Source: Nitrospirales bacterium LBB_01
GTDB lineage: Bacteria; Nitrospirota; Thermodesulfovibrionia; Thermodesulfovibrionales; Magnetobacteriaceae
Reading direction: 5' to 3'
NCBI GenBank assembly: GCA_004376055.2
Contig: CP049016.1
Coordinates: 62,001 to 126,000 of the forward strand
Length of the DNA: 64,000 bases
Shown here piece by piece: positions 15,359-46,329 of the stretch; position 1 is the stretch's first letter; each line of letters opens with the position of its first letter. A program made the position numbers and the translations under genes. The notes under the pieces are model-generated. The model saw nothing but the letters and a program-made list of their open reading frames with translations. It did not search any database and had not been told where the DNA came from.

Positions 15359-18025
15359 ATGGATATAAATTTAACTATCAATGACAAAAATGTAACTGCA
15401 CAAGAGGGTAAGACTATTCTTCAGGCGGCCCGCGAAAGCGGGATTTTTATTCCAACCCTGTGTGATAACCAGCACCTTGAGCCTTACGGTGGCTGCCGGC
15501 TCTGTCTGGTTGAACTTGACGGCGTTAGAAGGCCGTTTTCCTCTTGCACCACACCGGTCACAGAGGGAATGAAGGTTAGAACCGATACACCCTACATTGA
15601 GAAACTTAGACGAACCGTTGTAGAGCTTCTTCTTTCCGACCACCCTAACGACTGCATGGTGTGTGAGCGTGCCGGAGACTGTAAACTCCAGGAGCTTGCT
15701 TACTTATACGGTCTGCGCTCTAACCGCTTTTACGGACAGAGACGGCAGTATCAAGTAAAAGACGGCAATCCGTTTCTTGAGCGTGATATGGAAAAGTGTA
15801 TCCTCTGCGGATTATGCGTACGGGTCTGTGATGAGGTACAGGGGGTTGGCGCAATAGACATATCATACAGAGGGTTTAAATCGAAAGTATGCCCTCCCTT
15901 TGAAAAGGATTTAAATTGCGAGTTCTGCGGTCAGTGTGTTTCACTGTGTCCAACTGGAGCGTTAAGCGGTAAGATTTGGGCTAAGAAGGGACGCCAACAT
16001 CTTAAAGAGGTTGATACCACATGCTCTTATTGCGGCACAGGGTGTAACATCACACTTGCGGTTAAAGATAATGAGGTCGCAAGGGTTTACTCCAAACCGG
16101 ACACCCACAATCAGGGATGGCTTTGTGTTAAGGGGCGTTTCGGGTTTGAATTCATCAAAAGCAAAGACAGGCTGAAAACTCCTCTTATCAAAAAAGACGG
16201 CAAGTTGCAAGAGGCCAGTTGGGAGGAGGCTCTTAGCCTTATAGCGGATAAATTTAAAGAGATAAAGAAACAGCACGGAGCTGATGCTCTTGCAGGGCTT
16301 TCCTCGGCACGATGTACGAACGAGGATAATTACATGTTTCAAAAGTTTATGAGGGCGGCAGTTGGGACGAATAACGTTGACCACTGCGCCAGGTTTTGAC
16401 ACAGCCCTACTGTGGCCGGTCTGGCCACCGTGTTTGGTTCAGGAGCTATGTCTAATTCCGTGTGCGAGATAGAAGGCAACGAGGTGATTTTTGTGATAGG
16501 CTCTAACACTAAGGAAAACCACCCTGTGATCGCACTACGGATGATTAAGGCTGTTAAAAATGGAGCTAAACTCATCATCGCTGACCCGCGTAAGGTGCCC
16601 CTTGTAAAGAAGTCGCACCTGTGGCTTCAGCAGCTTCCAGGCACCGATGTTGCCCTGATTAACAGCATCATGCACGTTATCCACAAAGAGGGATTGATAA
16701 ATAAGTCCTTTATAGCCGAGCGTACGGAGGATTTTGAAAAAATAATCCCTATAATTGAAAAATTTACGCCGGAGGTCGGTGAAAAAATCACCCGCGTGCC
16801 AAAGGACAAAATCATAGAGGCAGCGCGTATGTACGGCAGCGCCAAAAACGCCGGTATATACTACACAATGGGAATTACCCAGCACTCACACGGCACAGAC
16901 AATGTGTTTTCGCTAGCAAATCTTGTCCTGATGACAGGTAATATCGGCAAACCCAATGCCGGTTTAAATCCGCTAAGAGGACAAAATAATGTTCAGGGGG
17001 CATCGGATATGGCATGTGCCCCTAACGTCTATCCTGGGTATCAGAAGGTGGATGATGAGACTGTTCAGAAAAAGTTTGAGGCGGCATGGGGCGTTCCGCT
17101 TTCTAACAAAGTAGGGCTTAATGCTGTTGACATGATGTATGCCGCTGAGGCAGGCAAAATTAAGGGTATGTACATAATGGGTGAAAATCCGGTAATGAGC
17201 GACCCTGATAAGGAACACACTGAAAAGGTACTGAAAGATATAGATTTCCTCGTTGTGCAGGACATTTTTATGACTGAAACCGGACGGCTTGCCGATGTAG
17301 TGCTTCCGGCTACATGTTTTGCAGAAAAAGACGGCACATTTACTAACACCGACCGCACTGTGCAAAGAGTGAGAAAAGCTCTTGAGCCGCCAGGTGACGC
17401 TAAAGAGGACTTGTCGGTAATTGTTGAGCTTTCAAGACGTCTTGGCTATACAATGGCTAATAAGACAGCTGAGACGGTGTTTGATGAAATTGGCAGCTTG
17501 TGGATAAATATGAAAGGGATGAACTATCGCAGACTTGAACAGAAAGGGCTTCAGTGGCCATGCCCTGATGAGAATCATCCCGGAACGCCGTACCTTTTTA
17601 AGGACACATTTCCACGCGGCAAGGGCAGATTTACTCCTGTTGAGTATCGTCCATCGGAGGAGCTACCCGATGATGAGTATCCATTTGTGCTGACCACAGG
17701 AAGAGAGCTTTTCCACTACCACACCGGCACCATGTCACGGCGAGTGCGTGCGCTTTCCACGGTGTCACCGAAGGCGTATGTTGAAATCCATCCGGCGGAT
17801 GCCGAGCGTTTAAGTATCAGCGATGGTGAGATGCTGAAAGTCTCCTCACGGCGCGGCTCTATAGTGCTTAAAGCGAGGGTGATTAAGAGCCCCGATGTGG
17901 GAGTAGTGTTTATCCCGTTTCATTTCAAAGAAGCAGCAGCCAATGTGCTGACTAATCCCGTGTATGATCCGATATGCAAAGTACCGGAGTTTAAGGTTTG
18001 TGCCGTTAAAATAGAAAAACTGTAA
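15359..18025 (+). CDS. fdhA: Formate dehydrogenase catalytic subunit, selenocysteine-containing (readthrough of UGA at 16397-16399)
   Basis: One 888-residue protein is encoded if the in-frame TGA at 16397 is read as selenocysteine (Sec347). Upstream of it reads DHCARF and downstream HSPTVAGLA, the exact active-site context of molybdenum/tungsten formate dehydrogenases (DHCAR-x-U-HSPT). N-terminal order: NuoG-like [2Fe-2S] domain, His/Cys-ligated [4Fe-4S] (DHPNDCMVCERAGDC), two [4Fe-4S] clusters (CILCGLCVRVC, CEFCGQCVSLCP), then the FDH [4Fe-4S] (CSYCGTGCN) and the molybdopterin domains to the end. It interconverts CO2 and formate. The true start is ATG 15359 (AGAGG ahead); the frame is open further upstream but without support. 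Ribosomes that fail to recode would stop at residue 346. Confidence 0.95.
16397..16428 (+). promoter_or_regulatory. Bacterial SECIS element of fdhA
   Basis: UGA at 16397-16399 is followed by a perfect 6-bp hairpin GTGGCC-GGTCT-GGCCAC at 16412-16428. The loop GGUCU and its 12-nt distance from the UGA match the SelB-binding SECIS of E. coli fdhF, and the bases after UGA (CACAGCCC) also resemble that gene (CACGGCCC). This directs selenocysteine insertion. selA, selB, selC and selD are not in the window. Confidence 0.9.
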
Positions 18026-27067: not shown

Positions 27068-28462
27068 TTACTCCACATATAACTCCATACATACTCCATT
27101 TTCAGAATAAGCAGAAGTGCCTGCCGGTACTACTTCTTTAAGCCATAGTGCCGCTTTTGCCGGATGTGTTTTAAACTGCAGCGTGTTGTTGGTTGCCCAT
27201 GTGCCGCCCCATGCGTTTGTCGGAACTGAGAAATACTTATACCCTGCGTTTGCATTGTTAGGCGTAAATGTGGAGTTAATGCTCCCTGTGCCGACACTCC
27301 CTGCGTAAGTGCCAGAGCATGTAAACGCTGTTGCAGATGTAAACGTAAATGTCCACGTGTCCTCAATCGTTCCCTGATTGTCAAGGGTCAGCTTGGTTAA
27401 ATCAAACGTGCCGGAGCCGGATATTGATTTGTTATCAGCAGACGTCTTTATATCGCCCAGAGACAGTGCCACAGCGCAATATGTGTTTGAGGTTGCGTAA
27501 TTATTAGCAGCCTGCTCAACCGTCTTAATCGTTAAGACGTTACTGCTCCAGCTCCATGACTGCTCGGTATAGTCGGCGGTTACGTTTGTTGAATTATCCG
27601 GCGCTGTTGAAAAGGTAATTGAAAACACTCCTGCGTTTGAAATCGTGCCTGAGCTTATAGACGTTCCTGTTATTGTTCCAGAACTGCTTGTTGTCGCTTG
27701 ATAATTAACGCTGCCAATTGTGTATTTGACAACCACAGTGGATTGTTTAACCGGAGTGTGTGTAACCGTGCCGGTAAAAGTAGTTTGAGAGCCGGTGCCT
27801 GCTCCTAAAACCTCGCCTGTGTAGCTGTTGTTTTGAGAGGTCACGTACTCAAGGTTACCGTTAGAGTTATAGCTAAAAACCTTATTGCCGCCCAGATATG
27901 TTCCATAGGGATACATGTCCTCATCTTCTACACTTGAGGGAGTTTGTTTTATCCACTTTGAGCCGTTGTAATAGACGGAGTCAAAGGCTTTAACGTCAGT
28001 GTCCATTGTCTGAGAGGTTAGAAAGTGGCTGTTTATAACGATTACCTGACCGTTGTCAATATAGAAATCGTTGTTTTCAAACAAGATTGACACCTGCTGA
28101 GCGCCCGCCGTTATGGCTGAGTTAAGGGCGCCGCCGCCTGCCCAGTTATAAGTTGAGTTCAAGTCATTCTGTGTATCTGTCATAGTACCCGCTCCGATAT
28201 AGAACCTATCGCCTGCCGGAGATGGAAAGATTAAGTAAGAGAGCACTGAGGCTGCCGTCTCAAGACTGGTGTTTTTATTCCATAAAAACAATTTACGGTG
28301 TCTTGTTACACCATTTATACGCTCCGGTCTTGTTACTCGTGGAAACAGGTTGTGTTTTTGACGATTGGTGATTGAATTGTACCCTGCCCTGCCGCCATTT
28401 GCCGATGTGTCGGTTACAGTTGCCGACTTTACATATGATATGTCGCTGCGTGTTACTGACAT
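27068..28462 (-). CDS. Phage-tail-like structural protein
   Basis: 464 residues, rich in S, T, G and N, with a good ribosome site (GGAGGAG). The N-terminus MSVTRSDISYVKSA... and the HNLFPRVTRPERINGVTRH segment resemble proteins I recall from tail/baseplate regions of Mu-like prophages. Residues about 210-300 (GAGTGSQTTFTGTVTHTPV ... GVFSITFSTAPD) form a beta-domain seen in phage tail and adhesin proteins. No enzyme motif. Two phage-like genes lie upstream on the same strand, but no integrase, capsid or terminase gene is present. Palindromic repeats flank it on both sides. Family recognition is from memory; function as a structural or binding protein is inferred. Confidence 0.6.
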   Translation of the reverse strand: MSVTRSDISYVKSATVTDTSANGGRAGYNSITNRQKHNLFPRVTRPERINGVTRHRKLFLWNKNTSLETAASVLSYLIFPSPAGDRFYIGAGTMTDTQNDLNSTYNWAGGGALNSAITAGAQQVSILFENNDFYIDNGQVIVINSHFLTSQTMDTDVKAFDSVYYNGSKWIKQTPSSVEDEDMYPYGTYLGGNKVFSYNSNGNLEYVTSQNNSYTGEVLGAGTGSQTTFTGTVTHTPVKQSTVVVKYTIGSVNYQATTSSSGTITGTSISSGTISNAGVFSITFSTAPDNSTNVTADYTEQSWSWSSNVLTIKTVEQAANNYATSNTYCAVALSLGDIKTSADNKSISGSGTFDLTKLTLDNQGTIEDTWTFTFTSATAFTCSGTYAGSVGTGSINSTFTPNNANAGYKYFSVPTNAWGGTWATNNTLQFKTHPAKAALWLKEVVPAGTSAYSENGVCMELYVE

Positions 28463-28486
28463 TTGTTTACTCCTCCATTTGTTTTT

Positions 28487-28514
28487 GTAAGGGCGAATAA
28501 TTATTCGCCCCTAC
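28487..28514. repeat. 28-bp palindrome, copy 2
   Basis: Same palindrome as 27024-27051 with one mismatch (GTAAGGGCGAATAA...). It lies between the 464-residue gene and the next gene, so the 464-residue gene is bracketed by two copies. Confidence 0.85.
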
Positions 28515-28537
28515 TGAATTCACTTTTTCATAGGATT

Positions 28538-29086
28538 CTACTTGCCGCAATCACTGCACCCTTTTTTTAAGGGCGAATGATTATTCGCCCCTACTGCCAA
28601 TACTTGCTGCCTATCCTCAAATTCCGATACCGGTACTCCCACAAATCCACGTGGCATCCCTATAAACGTCTTCTTTTCAACGCTGAAAATACTTGAGAGA
28701 GATACCGGATACCTTTCGTCAAAATGAATTTGAAGCGCAATCACGGGTTTAGTCTCTAAATCAGCATTAAATAAGAAACTGATTGTTGCCAGCCGTCTTG
28801 AGTCGTAGTATTCAAACACGCCGATAGAATTTATATCTGAGGTTTCAGGCGCAATAGACGGCTTCAAGTGTGAGGGGAAAAGGCCATCTCCCAGATTTAC
28901 GATTTCTGAAAACTGGAAAGGGTTATTCTTAAAACAAAAACTGATACTCTCAAGGGCATCGCTTACGATGTTATCAATCTCACGCCGCACAATTGTAATC
29001 TGAGCGCCCTTTAGCGTGTCAAAATAGCTGATGATTTTGTTGTCGTCATTATTCATAATGTTGTGCAAATCCCCCCTTAGTGTCAT
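28538..29086 (-). CDS. Phage-like hypothetical protein with repeat-derived C-terminus
   Basis: 182 residues. It overlaps the stop of the preceding 125-residue gene by 1 nt, so it is coupled to it. N-terminal ~160 residues look like an ordinary soluble protein of mixed alpha/beta composition; I recognise no catalytic motif. The last ~15 residues (VGANNHSPLKKGC) are encoded by a copy of the intergenic palindrome (28571-28590), showing that a repeat inserted at or near the original end and now supplies the tail. Most likely a tail or baseplate component. Confidence 0.6.
   Translation of the reverse strand: MTLRGDLHNIMNNDDNKIISYFDTLKGAQITIVRREIDNIVSDALESISFCFKNNPFQFSEIVNLGDGLFPSHLKPSIAPETSDINSIGVFEYYDSRRLATISFLFNADLETKPVIALQIHFDERYPVSLSSIFSVEKKTFIGMPRGFVGVPVSEFEDRQQVLAVGANNHSPLKKGCSDCGK
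28571..28590. repeat. Palindrome copy 3, inside the coding region
   Basis: GGGCGAATGATTATTCGCCC, one base different from the core of the other copies, 80 bp from copy 2. It encodes part of the C-terminus of the 28538-29086 protein. Confidence 0.85.
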
Positions 29087-29463
29087 CAGACCTCCATAAG
29101 CTTTATAACACCGTAGAAATAGTCATCGTCTATGAACTCTGCCGTATCAGTCACCGGAGTAAACTCTAACACAGGGGAATCCTCATGACGAAACCGCACG
29201 GTATATATATCGCCGTTAAATTCAAACTCGTAAATCTCTTCATAAACGCTTGCCATATCAAGAAGCGTTTTTAAATCCTTGTACGTAATCCATCCATAGT
29301 CGCTGCCTCCGGTCAGGTCTATGGTGCGTCCTGTAATCTCCGTTCCATAAATAACAACATCGCCGCTGAGAGTTCTTTCCACAGTCTCAGATATCCCAGT
29401 CCACTCAAAACAGTTTGGCCACGTCAGATCATTTGGCAGTGTTATGTCACCCAATTTTATCAC
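29086..29463 (-). CDS. Phage-like small protein of the tail module
   Basis: 125 residues, acidic, start GTG at 29463 (AAGGAAGG lies rather far upstream). The pattern LPNDLTWPNCFEWTGI and VRFRHEDSPVLEF(T)P resembles small proteins seen next to tail genes in prophages. No motif of known function. First gene of the three-gene minus-strand module 29463-27068. Confidence 0.55.
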   Translation of the reverse strand: MIKLGDITLPNDLTWPNCFEWTGISETVERTLSGDVVIYGTEITGRTIDLTGGSDYGWITYKDLKTLLDMASVYEEIYEFEFNGDIYTVRFRHEDSPVLEFTPVTDTAEFIDDDYFYGVIKLMEV

Positions 29464-29579: not shown

Positions 29580-29607
29580 TAAAGTTTGTGAGGCAATTTA
29601 CCGACGA
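29580..29607 (+). promoter_or_regulatory. Possible sigma-28 (FliA) promoter of the YjfB-like gene
   Basis: TAAAGTTT (29580-29587, consensus -35 of sigma-28), 12 nt, then ACCGACGA (29600-29607) against the -10 consensus GCCGATAA. The predicted start is about 40 nt before the ATG of a motility-related gene. Spacing is one longer than usual and the -10 is imperfect. Confidence 0.4.
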
Positions 29608-29655
29608 AGGAGTAAGGGTTGACGAAAGATATAGACGACAGGGGGTGACAGAGAT

Positions 29656-29859
29656 ATGGATATAAGCGGGGCTAACAGTTTGGGATCACTTGATTCTCAG
29701 CAGGGCATGCTGGTAGCCAAAAAGGCGCTTGATGCGATGAAAGCACAGGGGCAGATGGCTTTGAAATTGGTGGAAACTGCAGCTACAACCGGTCAGGCAC
29801 AGGTACAAAGCCCACAGAACCCTGAGGGCACAGGTAAAATCGTTGATGTGCGTGTTTGA
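29656..29859 (+). CDS. YjfB-like putative motility protein
   Basis: 67 residues: MDISGAN..., a helical centre (KKALDAMKAQGQMALKLVETA) and a disordered P/Q/G tail. This matches the small YjfB family (putative motility protein), often made with late flagellar genes. A GGGGG ribosome site precedes the ATG and a sigma-28-like promoter lies upstream. No other flagellar gene is in the window. Exact role unknown. Confidence 0.75.
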   Translation: MDISGANSLGSLDSQQGMLVAKKALDAMKAQGQMALKLVETAATTGQAQVQSPQNPEGTGKIVDVRV

Positions 29860-29934
29860 GTGAGCACTTAAAATTTCATTATACTTATTTAACCTCCTTT
29901 TCCAAATGTAAGTTTGGTTAACTTCACAGCTTTG

Positions 29935-29964
29935 TTGACACCCGCTGCATATTTTTGTTACATT
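29935..29964 (+). promoter_or_regulatory. Possible promoter of parA
   Basis: -35 TTGACA (29935-29940, consensus), an 18-nt spacer and -10 TACATT (29959-29964, 4 of 6), about 38 nt before the TTG start of parA. Confidence 0.45.
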
Positions 29965-30002
29965 AAGTTAGTCGTATAAATCTTTGTTGAGGGGGATACT
30001 GT

Positions 30003-30770
30003 TTGGTAACTATATGCCTTGCCAACCACAAGGGTGGTACTGGTAAGACGTCATTGTCTATTAATCTGGGGACGTATTTTGCCAGAAAAAAGCTCAAGGT
30101 TTTGCTTATTGATATGGACCCGCAGGGACACGTGGCTCCGGGCATAGGTGTGGAGGTCGGATACAATGACCGCTCAATGGCTGATATACTTTCAAATCAG
30201 GAGGATATTACTACCGTAATTCAAAAAACCCCTGTGAAAAATCTTGACATTGCCCCTGCTAACATAAGGCTAAGTCTTGTCAATGAGACTCTTTATAATT
30301 CCTTCAAACGTGAGCGCCGTCTTATGAAATCGATGGATTCCATATATAAAAATAAAACCTATAATCTGGTGATTATAGACTGTCCACCGTCATTGGGCCC
30401 GCTTGTAGAAAATACGCTTATGGTGGCGGATTATTGCCTTATTCCGTGTGAACCCTCAAGCCGCTCAATTGACGGGCTGGCAGATTTCATACTGAAAATG
30501 AAGGAGGTTAGAGAGGGCGCACTGGATGATAACTGGAACATAGTGCTATCGAGGGTTAAAAAGGCAGCAAGACTAACAAACGAGGTCATAGAGGAAAAAC
30601 TCTCTGATTATAAGGACAGGATATTGAAAACGAAAATATATGAACGGGAATCAATCAATCAGGCGCAGATGGCAGGCATTCCGGTGTTTGACTTTCCTCG
30701 CGGACAATTGGCTTCAGAAAATTTCACTAAATTTGGGAAGGAAGTATCGCTACAGTGCCGAATAAAATAA
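30003..30770 (+). CDS. ParA/Soj-family ATPase
   Basis: 255 residues, deviant Walker ATPase. P-loop KGGTGKTS with K10 (the signature lysine) and K15, Walker A' DMDPQG, and Walker B VIIDCPPSLG. Such proteins form ATP-dependent gradients on the nucleoid or pole to position plasmids, chromosomes, chemoreceptor arrays or flagella. The start is TTG at 30003 behind GAGGGGG. No ParB-like gene follows; instead a gene of unknown family overlaps its end by 16 nt. A role in placing cell structures is therefore as likely as DNA partition. Confidence 0.88.
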   Translation: MVTICLANHKGGTGKTSLSINLGTYFARKKLKVLLIDMDPQGHVAPGIGVEVGYNDRSMADILSNQEDITTVIQKTPVKNLDIAPANIRLSLVNETLYNSFKRERRLMKSMDSIYKNKTYNLVIIDCPPSLGPLVENTLMVADYCLIPCEPSSRSIDGLADFILKMKEVREGALDDNWNIVLSRVKKAARLTNEVIEEKLSDYKDRILKTKIYERESINQAQMAGIPVFDFPRGQLASENFTKFGKEVSLQCRIK

Positions 30771-31354
30771 AAAAACTGATGATTGAGGGCGGCTCTCGCC
30801 TTAAAAAACAAACCAAAAAAACCGAAACACTTAAAGCCATGAAAACCGGCGGAAAGGGCTCTGGCTTGCAATTAAACAGTACCGTTCGTAATCTTAATGA
30901 TTCCCGTAAAATCACTGCTTATAAGGACATACCAGACAGTGAGACCTCTTTTGCGGCCGATGTAGTAGAAAAATCAATTGAAACTGTTGAAACAGATAAT
31001 TTCTCAGAGGGCAAAGATGATTTCATAGCAAGGAACATATCTCCTCAGATGAAAGAGAGTTTGAAATTTGTCATGAGATCAAATATTAGTTTGGAGTGTC
31101 TTGAGGTTATAGAACAGGTTTCCATTGAAAACAAAAATCTGGTTCCTTTTTTAAAGAAATTGGACAAGTATGGCTTGACCAAAATTTGTGAGATAACGGA
31201 TGATGATGACTATGTGATAACCACAAAGCTGCGGATAATAGCGCTGTTAAACAAAATAAGCAAAAACGAGATAATTCATAAACTTCTCAGAAGAACCGGA
31301 GCGCTCATACAAGCTCTGAGACGGCTGAAAGAACTTCTTTTTGTTAACTTATAA
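30755..31354 (+). CDS. Unknown protein coupled to parA
   Basis: 199 residues from a GTG at 30755 inside the last codons of parA. The first ~45 residues are very basic (RLKKQTKKTETLKAMKTGGKG), resembling a DNA- or ATPase-stimulating tail. The middle is acidic and probably disordered. Residues ~100-195 are helical and end with LLRRTGALIQALRRLKELLF. A basic N-terminus in the partner of a ParA-type ATPase often stimulates ATP hydrolysis, so it could be the cargo adaptor of the ParA. I do not recognise the family. Confidence 0.65.
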   Translation: MPNKIKKLMIEGGSRLKKQTKKTETLKAMKTGGKGSGLQLNSTVRNLNDSRKITAYKDIPDSETSFAADVVEKSIETVETDNFSEGKDDFIARNISPQMKESLKFVMRSNISLECLEVIEQVSIENKNLVPFLKKLDKYGLTKICEITDDDDYVITTKLRIIALLNKISKNEIIHKLLRRTGALIQALRRLKELLFVNL

Positions 31355-31384
31355 AGTATCCGGGCGAAAGTGCCGGTGCAGCTA

Positions 31385-32311
31385 ATGGAACACTGTTTTA
31401 CAATAGAGGCTGCCGATGCCGGGGAGAGGCTTGACGTTTTTCTGACAAAAAAAACAGGGCTTACCCGCTCAAAAATCAGCAAACTTACAGGCATTGACGC
31501 TGTCCGTGTAAATGACGCTGCCGTTAAGTGTGGTTACCGGTTAAGGGCCGGTGAGACGATAACGGTTTCAAATGTAAACTCTGACGAAAGTGGGCTATTA
31601 GTTCCTGAGGACAAACACGTTGATATAGTGTATCAGGACAGTCATCTTGTTGTAGTGAATAAACCGCCCTTTATGCCGATGTATCCGGGGGCGGGTCATA
31701 GCGGAGGGACGCTTATGAACGCTCTTGCTATGAAAGTACAGAGTTCTGCAACAGTGGGCGCTCCACTTAGACCGGGAGTTGTCCACAGAATTGACAAAGA
31801 CACCTCAGGGCTTGTGGTAGTAGCTCTGGATGATGACACCTATTATGCGTTAGTGGAGCAATTCAAAAAAAAAGAGGTCAAGCGTTCATATAAGGCGTTG
31901 ATTTATGGCAAATTTAAAGAAGATGCCGGTGTTGTGACACTTCCTGTAGGCCGTTCTGCATCTGACAGAAAAAAGATGTCAACACGCTCAAGGCATCCCC
32001 GTGCTGCAATAACAAACTGGCGGGTTTTGCGGCAATACGTAGGAGCTACGCTAATTGAGGCCATACTCTCTACCGGACGAACACATCAGATACGTGTACA
32101 TTTTTCGGCACTTGGACATCCGCTCTTAGGGGATACCTGCTACGGCAATAAAGACAACATAGAAATACGAGGAGCTAAAATAAAGATACCCAGACAGATG
32201 CTTCACGCCGCTCAACTTGGATTTATCCATCCTGTAACAAAAAAACTCCTTGAGTTTGAAAGCGATATTCCCGCCGATATGGCAGCTATACTTGATTTGT
32301 TTGAAAAGTGA
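31385..32311 (+). CDS. RluA/RluD-family pseudouridine synthase
   Basis: About 308 residues. An N-terminal S4 RNA-binding domain (RLDVFLTKKTGLTRSKISKL) is followed by the catalytic domain with HRIDKDTSGLVVVA, whose aspartate is the nucleophile, and TGRTHQIRVH. The enzyme isomerises uridines, most likely in 23S rRNA helix 69 if it is the RluD type. A GTG at 31370 is an alternative start, with no ribosome site at either; the ATG at 31385 fits the family length. It is 15-30 nt after the ParA partner gene. Confidence 0.92.
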   Translation: MEHCFTIEAADAGERLDVFLTKKTGLTRSKISKLTGIDAVRVNDAAVKCGYRLRAGETITVSNVNSDESGLLVPEDKHVDIVYQDSHLVVVNKPPFMPMYPGAGHSGGTLMNALAMKVQSSATVGAPLRPGVVHRIDKDTSGLVVVALDDDTYYALVEQFKKKEVKRSYKALIYGKFKEDAGVVTLPVGRSASDRKKMSTRSRHPRAAITNWRVLRQYVGATLIEAILSTGRTHQIRVHFSALGHPLLGDTCYGNKDNIEIRGAKIKIPRQMLHAAQLGFIHPVTKKLLEFESDIPADMAAILDLFEK

Positions 32312-32458: not shown

Positions 32459-32743
32459 ATGGACGTCATTGAAATATTGAAAAGCCACGAAAAAGTGATA
32501 AAGAGCCGATTTCACATCAGCTGTATAGGAGTGTTTGGTTCCTTTGCACGTGGAGAAGCAAAAGCAGAAAGCGATGTCGATGTACTTGTTGAATTTGAAG
32601 AGGGATATGTTACTTTTAACAACTACGCCGATCTAAAATTTTATCTTGAAGACTTGTTCAGTAGAGAGGTAGATTTGGTAACCATCAATGCCATTCGTCC
32701 ACAAATGAAGGATTTCATTCTAAGTGAAGTCACCTATGCGTAG
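32459..32743 (+). CDS. mntA: MntA-type nucleotidyltransferase antitoxin
   Basis: 94 residues, minimal nucleotidyltransferase. The catalytic motif G27-S28...S38-D39-V40-D41 is complete (GSFARGEAKAESDVDVLVEF). In the MntA/HepT systems this protein adds AMP to a tyrosine of the HEPN toxin and silences it. The stop codon overlaps the hepT start by 8 nt (ATGCGTAG), typical for such pairs. Confidence 0.88.
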   Translation: MDVIEILKSHEKVIKSRFHISCIGVFGSFARGEAKAESDVDVLVEFEEGYVTFNNYADLKFYLEDLFSREVDLVTINAIRPQMKDFILSEVTYA

Positions 32744-33086
32744 AGGCTATAGGCTTTACCTTGAAGATATCCTAACTGCTATTGTGAAGATTCAGCGGTT
32801 CATAGACACAACTTCATTTGAGGAGTTCATAGTTGATGATAAAACTTATGATGCAGTAATTCGTAACTTTGAAATTATTGGCGAGGCCTCAAAGAATATC
32901 CCACAAGAGGTGCAGGATAATTATCCTGCTGTTGATTGGAAAAAAGTCTATCTTTTCAGAAATGTGCTTGCCCACGAGTATTTTGGTATTGACAATCAAC
33001 TGCTGTGGGACATAATTCAGAATCGTCTGCCTGAACTGAGTATGGAGATTCAAAGTATTCTTGAAAAGGGCAACACAACTACTTAA
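32736..33086 (+). CDS. hepT: HepT-type HEPN ribonuclease toxin
   Basis: 116 residues from the ATG at 32736 (a GTG at 32724 is also in frame). The HEPN catalytic motif R75-NVLA-H80-E-Y82 (R-x4-H-x-Y) is intact, including the tyrosine that is adenylylated by MntA. As a free toxin it would cut RNA. Forms a two-gene toxin-antitoxin unit with mntA, followed by a 220-bp AT-rich spacer. Confidence 0.88.
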   Translation: MRRGYRLYLEDILTAIVKIQRFIDTTSFEEFIVDDKTYDAVIRNFEIIGEASKNIPQEVQDNYPAVDWKKVYLFRNVLAHEYFGIDNQLLWDIIQNRLPELSMEIQSILEKGNTTT

Positions 33087-43494: not shown

Positions 43495-44438
43495 TTTATG
43501 CATCTAAACGACTAATTGCCGCTAATTTCCTCAATATAGCATGGTACGTCAGAGACATATAAATCAAATGAACCGTTTGTAACGCTGTAGTATGAAACAG
43601 TGAAGTTACCGCTCTCATCTGCTGGGGTGCTCTGTGTTACTAATGCGCCTGTGACACTTGTGCTTGACAGTGGAAATGTTATAGTCTTGCCTGTGTTTGC
43701 CCATACCACATACACAGGTTTACCGGCTACCTCAAATTTATAGGCATACGTGGAGTTGTCCTGAAAGGCAGGAGCGGTTGTAACTGATGTGAAAGAATCA
43801 ATTTTTTTTATCAATTTCTTAAGCGTATAGTATGCTTTTTTTTTTCTGTCTCCCTGGGGATCAATAAGTCCGGCATCAGACATTTTGTAATAGACATAAA
43901 AGATTTTTTCAGCTCCGTCAGCAAAAGCCTTTACATAACCTTTCACAATGTTCTTTGCCTGAGAGTGCTCATCCGGCGAGTTGTTAGCTCCTGTGTCCGG
44001 GTGGTTTGTGCTAAAAACCATGTATTCGGTGTTCCATAGTCTGTTAACATTTTTATGGCTAAAGATATCGTGCCAGAGGCTTGTCGCAAGGTCTCCGACA
44101 TCATCGTGCTGCGGCAGATAGTGCCAATTGCCTACGTCAAAAGGTGAAGCCCCCGTCAAATCCAGCACATCCTGCCAGTATGAGGTGTTACCGCCGGTTG
44201 CTCCGCCATTTAATATCTGTGCCTGAGGATAAACTTTCTTAATCGCTGTTGTTGTGACCTTAACAAGCTCCATGTAGTCAGTCTCTGTTCCCTTATAAAA
44301 TATCATTGGCGAGTCGGGGGTAAGGCTGGATATAGTGGACCCCATTGTCAAGACCACTTTTTAGTGGACTTAAGGTATAGCCCTCTAAGAGGGTATTTAG
44401 TCTGTTAGTATAAGGGTAAGGGATAGGGTAATGCATCC

Positions 44439-45266
44439 TTACGCCGCCATCGCAAAATCAGAGCTTTTATAAACCTCGGCAGGTGTTTTGCCTCTAAGCG
44501 TAGAATGCGGACGCTCATTGTTATAAAAATCAAAATAGCTCCTTAGCGCTTTAATCAACTCATCAACAGTTTCATAATCTTTTATATAAACCTCCTCATA
44601 CTTGACACTGCGCCACAGCCGCTCAATCATGATATTATCCATAGCCCGTCCTCTGCCATCCATACTTATCCGAATCCCATTGCTCTGAAGCACATTGATA
44701 AACGCTGCCCCTGTATACTGGCTGCCTTGATCTGTGTTGAATATCTCAGGACTGCCATAGAGCCTAAGGGCTCGCTCAAGGCTACTTACGCAAAAACCAT
44801 CATCCATTGTCACTGACACCTCCCATGACAGCACATAGCGGCTATACCAGTCCATTACTGCTGTCAGATACACAAAGCCATGTCTCATTCGAATATACGT
44901 TATATCACTGCACCAGACTTGGTTGATGATAGTAATATCTAATAATCGCAGTAGATAAGGGTAAACTTTATGTTGCTTATTCCGTACTGTCGTTCTTTTT
45001 CTGGGTGCTATAGATACAAGACCCATCAACATCATCAAACGCTTTACTCGCTTGCGATTTACTTTATATCCTGCTCGGAAAAGAATGTAAACCATTGTGC
45101 GGCTTCCATACCATGGATGCATTGTGTACTGCTCATCTATTGCCCTCATCACCTTCAAATTCTCCTCGCTCTCCGGTACTGCCTGACGATAATAACTGGA
45201 GCGTGGAAGGCTTAGCAGGTTACACTGCTGACGAATACTCAATTCCTTATTTGCTGGCTCTATCAT
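44439..45266 (-). CDS. IS3-family transposase OrfB (DDE integrase)
   Basis: 275 residues. The catalytic triad is D121 (WCSDITY), D179 (FNTDQGSQYTG) and E215 (NIMIERLWRSVKYEEVY), with 35 residues between the second D and E (DD35E). The N-terminal HTH_21 region precedes it. It is normally made as an OrfAB fusion by -1 frameshifting; the -1 frame from orfA's A9 run is open through to the ATG here. Confidence 0.94.
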   Translation of the reverse strand: MIEPANKELSIRQQCNLLSLPRSSYYRQAVPESEENLKVMRAIDEQYTMHPWYGSRTMVYILFRAGYKVNRKRVKRLMMLMGLVSIAPRKRTTVRNKQHKVYPYLLRLLDITIINQVWCSDITYIRMRHGFVYLTAVMDWYSRYVLSWEVSVTMDDGFCVSSLERALRLYGSPEIFNTDQGSQYTGAAFINVLQSNGIRISMDGRGRAMDNIMIERLWRSVKYEEVYIKDYETVDELIKALRSYFDFYNNERPHSTLRGKTPAEVYKSSDFAMAA

Positions 45267-45280
45267 CGCTCGTTTCTCAC

Positions 45281-45574
45281 TTACCGTTGCGCAAGTAACA
45301 GGCTCTTTTTTTTTAGCCAGTCCACTTCTACTTGCAACTTCCCTATTTGACTATATAACCGCTCTCGCTCTGATTCATATGCCGCCTGAGAATTTTCTTG
45401 CACTCCATTAAATAACGTTGACGCCCCTTCTACTAAATGCTTTTTCCATTCATTCACCTGGTTCACATGAATATCAAATTCCTGCGCTATCTCATTGGCT
45501 GTCCTCTGACCTTTGAGCGCTTCTATTGCTACTTTTGCTTTGTACTCTTTGCCAAACTTCCGTCTGTTTTTCAT
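45281..45574 (-). CDS. IS3-family transposase OrfA
   Basis: 97 residues: helix-turn-helix (KAKVAIEALKGQRTANEIAQEF) that binds the IS ends, and a leucine zipper (YSQIGKLQVEVDWLKKK). A run of nine A followed by G (45305-45313) near its end is the probable -1 slippage site that joins orfA to orfB. Confidence 0.92.
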   Translation of the reverse strand: MKNRRKFGKEYKAKVAIEALKGQRTANEIAQEFDIHVNQVNEWKKHLVEGASTLFNGVQENSQAAYESERERLYSQIGKLQVEVDWLKKKSLLLAQR

Positions 45575-46329
45575 TTTATCCTCCCATTCATTACAACCAG
45601 CTCTATCTTAACTGATTGTCTCATATTTGGGATCCACTATAGGATTCAGGTTCGTTTAATATTTCCCAATACATGATGGGATATAGAAGCCCTGGCATAT
45701 CGTTGAGGCCGTCTCCGTTATACCTCTCAACCAAAGCCTTTACAAAGGCACTGTAAGCTTCAATATCATGTGGATTGTACCTGCTTGTGGGTAAATCAGC
45801 AAGCCATCCTGTTGAGGCCTCCCAGTTCTGCATCCCCTCCCAGTACTCCTGATCCCAGTCAACAAACGGCCAAATTGTTGCCACAATAGAAATTCCGCGC
45901 TTCTGTGCTTCACTTACATACGCATCCGGTATCGTAAAGTCATACACTCCTTTTTTGCGCTCAATTATGTTGCGGTTAAAAGGGCCGGGATGTGGCCTGT
46001 CCCACTTAAATCCAAGATCATCATGCGGTGTAAAATACGAATACGATGTAAACGCAGTGCTCCACGGTATTGACACTGACGAGCTGCCAACCAATCCAAA
46101 GACATTCCCGAGATAGCCAAACCGGTACGTGTTATCATCTGCACATAACAGCATACCCGGCGATAGAAATACCAAAAAAAGCACCATAAGACATGTAATC
46201 CTTGACATAAAAACCACCTGCTAAACAGCTATTGCTGATTTGTAATCAAAGACGGTAGAAAAAATGTATCATTATTTGTACAGGTTTGTCAATATGTCAA
46301 ATTGCCTTGACACACTACTTAGTATCAGA

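Follow-up and report, generated by a model that had tools for sequence, protein, structure and literature searches.

A lineage-specific ParA-type cassette of two overlapping genes, a candidate positioning device, in a presumably magnetotactic family of Nitrospirota

Many ATPases of the ParA type are called orphans, with no partner identified, in PMC10241942. There, as in PMC7993993, activators of ParA/MinD ATPases are given a common layout, a short positively charged N-terminal stretch grafted onto another domain. Among the closest described systems is PomZ/PomX of Myxococcus, in which, according to PMC7993993, a ParA without ParB is joined by a non-homologous partner with a short basic N-terminal peptide, a variable linker, and a conserved C-terminal part. 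In PpfA/TlpT and ParC/ParP, as described in PMC10241942 and PMC5706961, a ParA with its partner has some chemotaxis genes in the vicinity. At the locus described here, the overlap of two genes and their conservation allow a partner to be proposed for an orphan ParA.

The analyzed window, 64,000 nucleotides long, comprises bases 62001–126000 of a single-contig genome of 3.27 Mb. The host family, whose bacteria are largely uncultured, we take to be probably magnetotactic Nitrospirota. The initial annotation had reported a sigma-28-like promoter, a YjfB-like gene, an orphan ParA gene, and a partner gene in a row, and all four were found in place (Table 1). The best reading of the locus is that the last two genes would form a lineage-specific ParA-type positioning cassette; a limited literature search found no publications on the pair.

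Table 1. Positions of the locus features within the window
Feature	Position	Strand	Basis or remark
Sigma-28-like promoter of YjfB-like gene	29580..29607	+	Exact TAAAGTTT-N12-ACCGACGA; YjfB homologues of four genera have it upstream too
YjfB-like small protein, 67 aa	29656..29859	+	Pfam PF14070 match below cut-off; homologues in relatives
Candidate sigma-70-type promoter of ParA cassette	29935..29964	+	TTGACA-N18-TACATT, TG before second hexamer
Orphan ParA ATPase, 255 aa, TTG start	30003..30770	+	Walker A KGGTGKTS; Pfam, NCBIfam, tree, alignment
ParA/partner gene overlap, 16 nt	30755..30770	+	9/11 loci alike
Partner protein, 199 aa, GTG start	30755..31354	+	Putative new family
Partner residues 1-28, candidate ParA-activating peptide	30755..30838	+	Basic motif KIKxLMxxGxSR, net charge +7
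Partner residues 86-199, candidate cargo-binding C-domain	31010..31351	+	Conserved; alone in ParA-less genus
RluD-type pseudouridine synthase	31370..32311	+	Pfam; after partner, usual neighbor, not thought part of the mechanism

Pfam searches with the ATPase returned AAA_31 (E 2.2e-44) and CbiA (E 1e-19), and the deviant Walker A motif together with the ParA-type domain places it in the ParA branch of the ParA/MinD superfamily. Soj chains were among its best matches in PDB sequences, and an McdA chain (E 5e-10) scored far below the Soj and ParA chains. Basic stretches near SRVKKAARL and FKRERRL are largely conserved in the alignment. The start codons at 11 loci were TTG (four), GTG (four), CTG (two, inferred), and ATG (one), and this choice may keep expression low. 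With a ParB query, neither the window nor any of 16 relative loci gave a match at E≤1e-3, in agreement with the claimed absence of ParB; the query did recover its own locus, L003.

A phylogeny against the Soj, FlhG, and MinD proteins of the same genome, which covers the Soj and FlhG part of the check proposed with the initial annotation, was computed from 116 ParA-type proteins, consisting of 80 loci among the matches listed in a genome-contig search, the family loci, and own-genome paralogues. In this quick tree, which has several long branches and an outgroup that does not lie on one side of any branch, the family ParA proteins formed one clade (SH-aLRT 100), located outside a 75-row clade (support 99) that holds the genome's Soj and all 65 ParB-linked rows. 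The window ParA shares the ParA domain and Walker A motif with Soj of the ParABS system, but differs in lacking a nearby ParB and conserved parS sites and in falling outside the ParB-linked clade. By reading the sequences, we assign the genome's own loci as Soj-ParB (2.59 Mb), FlhF-FlhG-FliA (2.88 Mb), and MinC-MinD (1.53 Mb), and the window ParA is distinct from the Soj (which has ParB beside it), FlhG, and MinD so named. FlhG and MinD belong to the same ATPase superfamily, but both are encoded separately in the genome, and a membrane-targeting C-terminal extension like theirs is absent in 10 of 11 family ParAs, the window protein included, the remaining one (G084) having a short lysine-rich tail (presence only was compared).

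Further ParA kinds were encountered in the family. A second ParA without ParB occurs at seven loci in two genera (L002, at G000:C1:399447-400172, and L123, L128, L129, L131, L132, and L135), each time followed by a partner of 132–155 aa that overlaps it by 8–11 nt and starts like MAKKxxVMxRLSALxPAVPTxTR. Another kind, the ParA L126 in G108 (34% identity), overlaps by 35 nt a gene for a putative partner of 75 aa whose N-terminus is basic; the sister position of L126 in the tree is not trusted.

The overlap of ParA with its partner gene, described in the initial annotation, was confirmed. Nine of 11 loci share a length of exactly 16 nt, and the other two show a 25-nt overlap (G141) or a 3-nt gap (G084). 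The strongly basic N-terminus was likewise borne out, with a net charge over residues 1–28 ranging from +3 to +9 in all 11 ParA-linked partners. In ten of these KIKxLMxxGxSR is present without deviation, and G084 reads KKKNLMSRGRLR; the G123 partner has KMK. Within the genus, identity was 84–88% over the first 25 residues, 23–47% over the linker, and 85–86% over the last 110 residues; the partner is composed of a basic N-terminal motif, a fast-evolving linker, and a conserved C-domain. The alignment contains 14 partners and excludes G108, which was read by eye and counted in the 11-locus comparison, and a fragment from G129.

Searches with the partner against Pfam, NCBIfam (best E 0.13), PHROGs, and PDB sequences gave no informative match, and judged by these comparisons it is a new protein family. 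Homology to a DNA-partition protein, which the initial annotation had named as evidence against its reading, was not found in any of the four collections. A profile built from the partner alignment gave two PDB matches (E 1.1 and 1.2), which were taken as chance, and nine Pfam families that each matched one of the 14 partners (best E 0.0055) were dismissed. The helical C-terminus that had been described is suggested by weak single-sequence AlphaFold2 models, with a mean pLDDT of 47.5 for the whole partner and 61.0 for the C-domain alone. A short N-terminal basic stretch attached to another domain corresponds to the activator layout in PMC7993993, and by this analogy the partner is probably an activator of the ParA ATPase. 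The suggestion of an ATPase stimulator or cargo link therefore holds as to build, which is that of known ParA/MinD activators, and the cargo put forward with it (flagella or chemoreceptor arrays) is a possibility; because the C-domain has no identified homologue, it indicates no cargo.

To define the range of the cassette, we compared genomes of the family, order, and phylum. ParA orthologues (61–95% identity) were present in the window's genome and 10 of 18 other family genomes, and G116 and G123 hold ParA fragments at contig ends. Of the 149 order genomes sampled, 16 contain the partner, as do 12 of 395 phylum genomes, and ParA at E≤1e-45 was found in 9 of the 395; all of these belong to the one family, to which the cassette is limited among the genomes sampled in order and phylum. 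Weak matches of the partner profile in the phylum (E 0.005–0.01), in five further genomes and at a second place in G002, were rejected as unrelated; by reading, we take them to be LpxB (four), a response-regulator/HD-type protein (one), and HisD (the G002 place).

The cassette has a promoter-like element of its own. The candidate in the window agrees with the consensus at 10 of 12 positions, and a scan of the window region gave six such sites versus 4.2 expected, so that as a single site it is unremarkable and not above chance. TTGACA with a TTA-type second element precedes ParA at each of 11 loci; G116, read by eye, also has it, making 12 of 12 loci from five genera of related genomes.

Neither ParA nor partner was found in G057. 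No ParA orthologue was found in the genus g5, comprising G067, G076, G100, and the 56% complete G149, where the protein search covered ParA. The first three genomes retain a C-domain protein of 132–142 residues, in which the N-terminus reads ERRKxRRRD and KIKxLMxxGxSR is absent, and in all three TTGACA lies about 40 nt before its start codon (in G067 by eye), as if parA had been lost between promoter and partner. Since this genus keeps a basic N-terminus, charge does not track ParA, and only the motif does; the joint absence of ParA and motif counts as one evolutionary event. As a natural experiment, in which ParA is absent, the C-domain is kept, and the N-terminal motif is changed, the genus points to the part of the partner that would meet the ATPase. 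At L158, L159, and L161 of this genus, the start codon follows the second promoter element by about 8–11 nt, so the partner mRNA may be leaderless there.

Taken together, it seems rather likely that ParA and the overlapping partner encode a two-protein positioning device. ParA would dimerize with ATP and bind the nucleoid, the basic N-terminal peptide of the partner would touch the ParA dimer and trigger ATP hydrolysis, and the C-domain would hold a cargo, which repeated binding and release would move or space over the nucleoid. Nucleoid binding, ATPase stimulation, and cargo transport are thereby transferred from the named families. Compared with PomX, the window partner is shorter and shows no sequence match, and no PomY-like third gene was recognized.

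Our best guess for the cargo, a tentative one, is a chemosensory array. Of the 12 ParA loci, five have YjfB as the immediate upstream neighbor (the window, G002, G015, G092, and G116) and two, G027 and G108, have CheY there; these seven loci with a motility neighbor come from two genera. In G116, CheY, YjfB, and ParA stand in a row. The closest own-genome homologue of the G027 CheY, 59% identical, lies directly before CheA; in G100, the gene immediately before the ParA-less partner encodes an MCP; and elsewhere in several genomes of the family CheY, by reading, directly precedes YjfB. The window's genome also has 17 CheW-domain matches. These neighborhoods are suggestive of a chemotaxis link, and the cassette may possibly place the chemosensory (or flagellar) apparatus, with the C-domain docking onto a Che or MCP complex, much as in ParC/ParP or PpfA/TlpT. 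In those systems the partner carries a CheW or chemoreceptor domain and the pair lies in a che operon. By contrast, Pfam found no CheW or receptor domain in any of 14 partners, and in the loci read the pair stands outside any che operon. Moreover, a promoter-like element of its own precedes the ParA-partner pair, neither YjfB nor CheY adjoins ParA upstream in the remaining five loci (G037, G146, G141, G047, and G084), and chance adjacency is possible because signaling genes are so many (136 matches to a CheY query in the genome). The RluD gene is found downstream of the partner at 13 of 15 partner-bearing relative loci (once with a gene between), but not at those of G047 and G084.

Alternatively, the pair might be a diverged DNA-segregation system, in which the partner would bind DNA in place of ParB. 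Partition ParAs and Soj are named relatives of this ParA, and the partner is basic at both ends; however, a normal Soj-ParB pair already exists in the genome, and no DNA-binding domain was recognized by Pfam in the 14 partners. In scans with the parS consensus, no parS-like site with up to two mismatches was found in the window. Two of 16 relative loci have such sites (two copies in G002 and one in the ParA-less G067), which speaks for segregation, and the other 14 have none; this absence says little, because short ParB loci tested likewise showed no site. A parB/parS pair near the locus in relatives, which would have contradicted the initial annotation, was not seen in any conserved way. Elsewhere in the genome, a perfect parS site is located at 3.19 Mb, followed 49 bp further by a copy with one mismatch; on a circular chromosome, the perfect site would be about 174 kb away from ParA. 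A further site with one mismatch, at 0.21 Mb, lies about 119 kb from ParA. We regard a role in DNA segregation as unlikely.

It also appears quite unlikely that the cargo is an inclusion of these bacteria such as the magnetosome chain or a storage granule. Inclusion positioning by a ParA-type ATPase is known from McdA/McdB (PMC7993993), and ParA, partner, and magnetochrome domains all occur in the same family, but this overlap is explained by family membership alone. Magnetochrome matches were found in 17 of 19 family genomes (16 above the cut-off), among them the ParA-less genus and G057, and their presence, tried as a marker of the cassette, fails to separate genomes with and without ParA. 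Because they also occur in ParA-less genomes, magnetosomes are a shared background and not a cassette marker. If the genome is circular, about 0.94 Mb separates the cassette from this genome's magnetochrome match, and the chain of other magnetotactic bacteria is moved by MamK (PMC5059902). More speculatively, and to be viewed with considerable doubt, a ParA motor and a new cargo adaptor might place a structure peculiar to these bacteria, such as a sensory array that is linked with the chain of magnetosomes, and in one genus the adaptor, freed by the loss of parA, might work alone. A sensory or magnetic cargo would open up the biology of positioning in a family of probably magnetotactic bacteria.

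YjfB has been placed in a flagellar sub-module beside sigma-28 and called uncharacterized in PMC11607428. The YjfB-like gene of the initial annotation is real, and resembles this flagellar-region protein by a weak family match and by its sigma-28-like promoter, but its score against YjfB_motility (PF14070; E 1.5e-4, 22.2 bits) falls under the Pfam cut-off of 27 bits. The profile matched in 8 of 19 family genomes at E≤0.1, passing the cut-off in one (G057, 29.5 bits), and homologues were found at E≤1 in 15 of 19. The promoter sequence, too, is exactly as had been claimed. Judged on the window by itself, TAAA-N14..17-CCGA, a short motif, cannot be called rare, with 14 sites versus 9.2 expected and at least 14 in 9 of 100 shuffles. 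Calibration on flagellin genes found no TAAA-N14..18-(C/G)CGA within 400 nt, where available, in the upstream regions of five overlapping loci from among six flagellin matches; at the locus L176, GCCGATAA is also present, without a well-spaced TAAA. Two flagellin loci of the window's genome (L172 and L176) look sigma-54-like, with TGGCAY-N5-TTGCA and without a well-spaced sigma-28 site. Conservation before YjfB homologues was therefore used instead: seven of 14 homologues have TAAA-N15..17-CCGA in the 200 nt before the gene, with 0.15 expected from shuffles, and this is more than chance. Four of the seven loci are from one genus (window included) and three from three further genera; the 14 homologues are 16 loci minus L150 and L151, where the gene was not refound by tblastn.

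That YjfB, ParA, and partner form one unit driven by the sigma-28-like promoter is very improbable and the grouping finds no support, since, even though all three genes point in the same direction and read-through from YjfB into ParA is possible because no terminator-like site was found between them on the + strand, TTGACA stands directly before ParA at all 12 loci (one by eye), YjfB adjoins ParA in only five of these, and YjfB sits elsewhere in other family genomes. Two separate transcription units are the likeliest arrangement suggested by the sequence, and YjfB, to which the sigma-28-like promoter belongs, is for these reasons probably a neighbor under flagellar-type control and outside the ParA-partner unit.

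Several other features of the window were recorded. Beside YjfB, at 27068–29463 on the minus strand, lie three ORFs, two of which match phage families of unknown function (phrog_6128 and phrog_4408); the block is kept in the genus's three relatives and is possibly a domesticated piece of phage. Two ORFs at 44439–45574 on the minus strand look, by reading, like an IS3-type transposase and apparently split a glycosidase-like gene (43512–44357 and 45621–46217). A formate dehydrogenase-like gene contains an in-frame TGA at 16397–16399 (CARF-U-HSPTVAGLA), which, by its motif, is probably selenocysteine. Adjacent small genes at 32459–33086, presumably nucleotidyltransferase-like and HEPN-like, are a possible toxin-antitoxin pair, and a similar pair occurs in L004.
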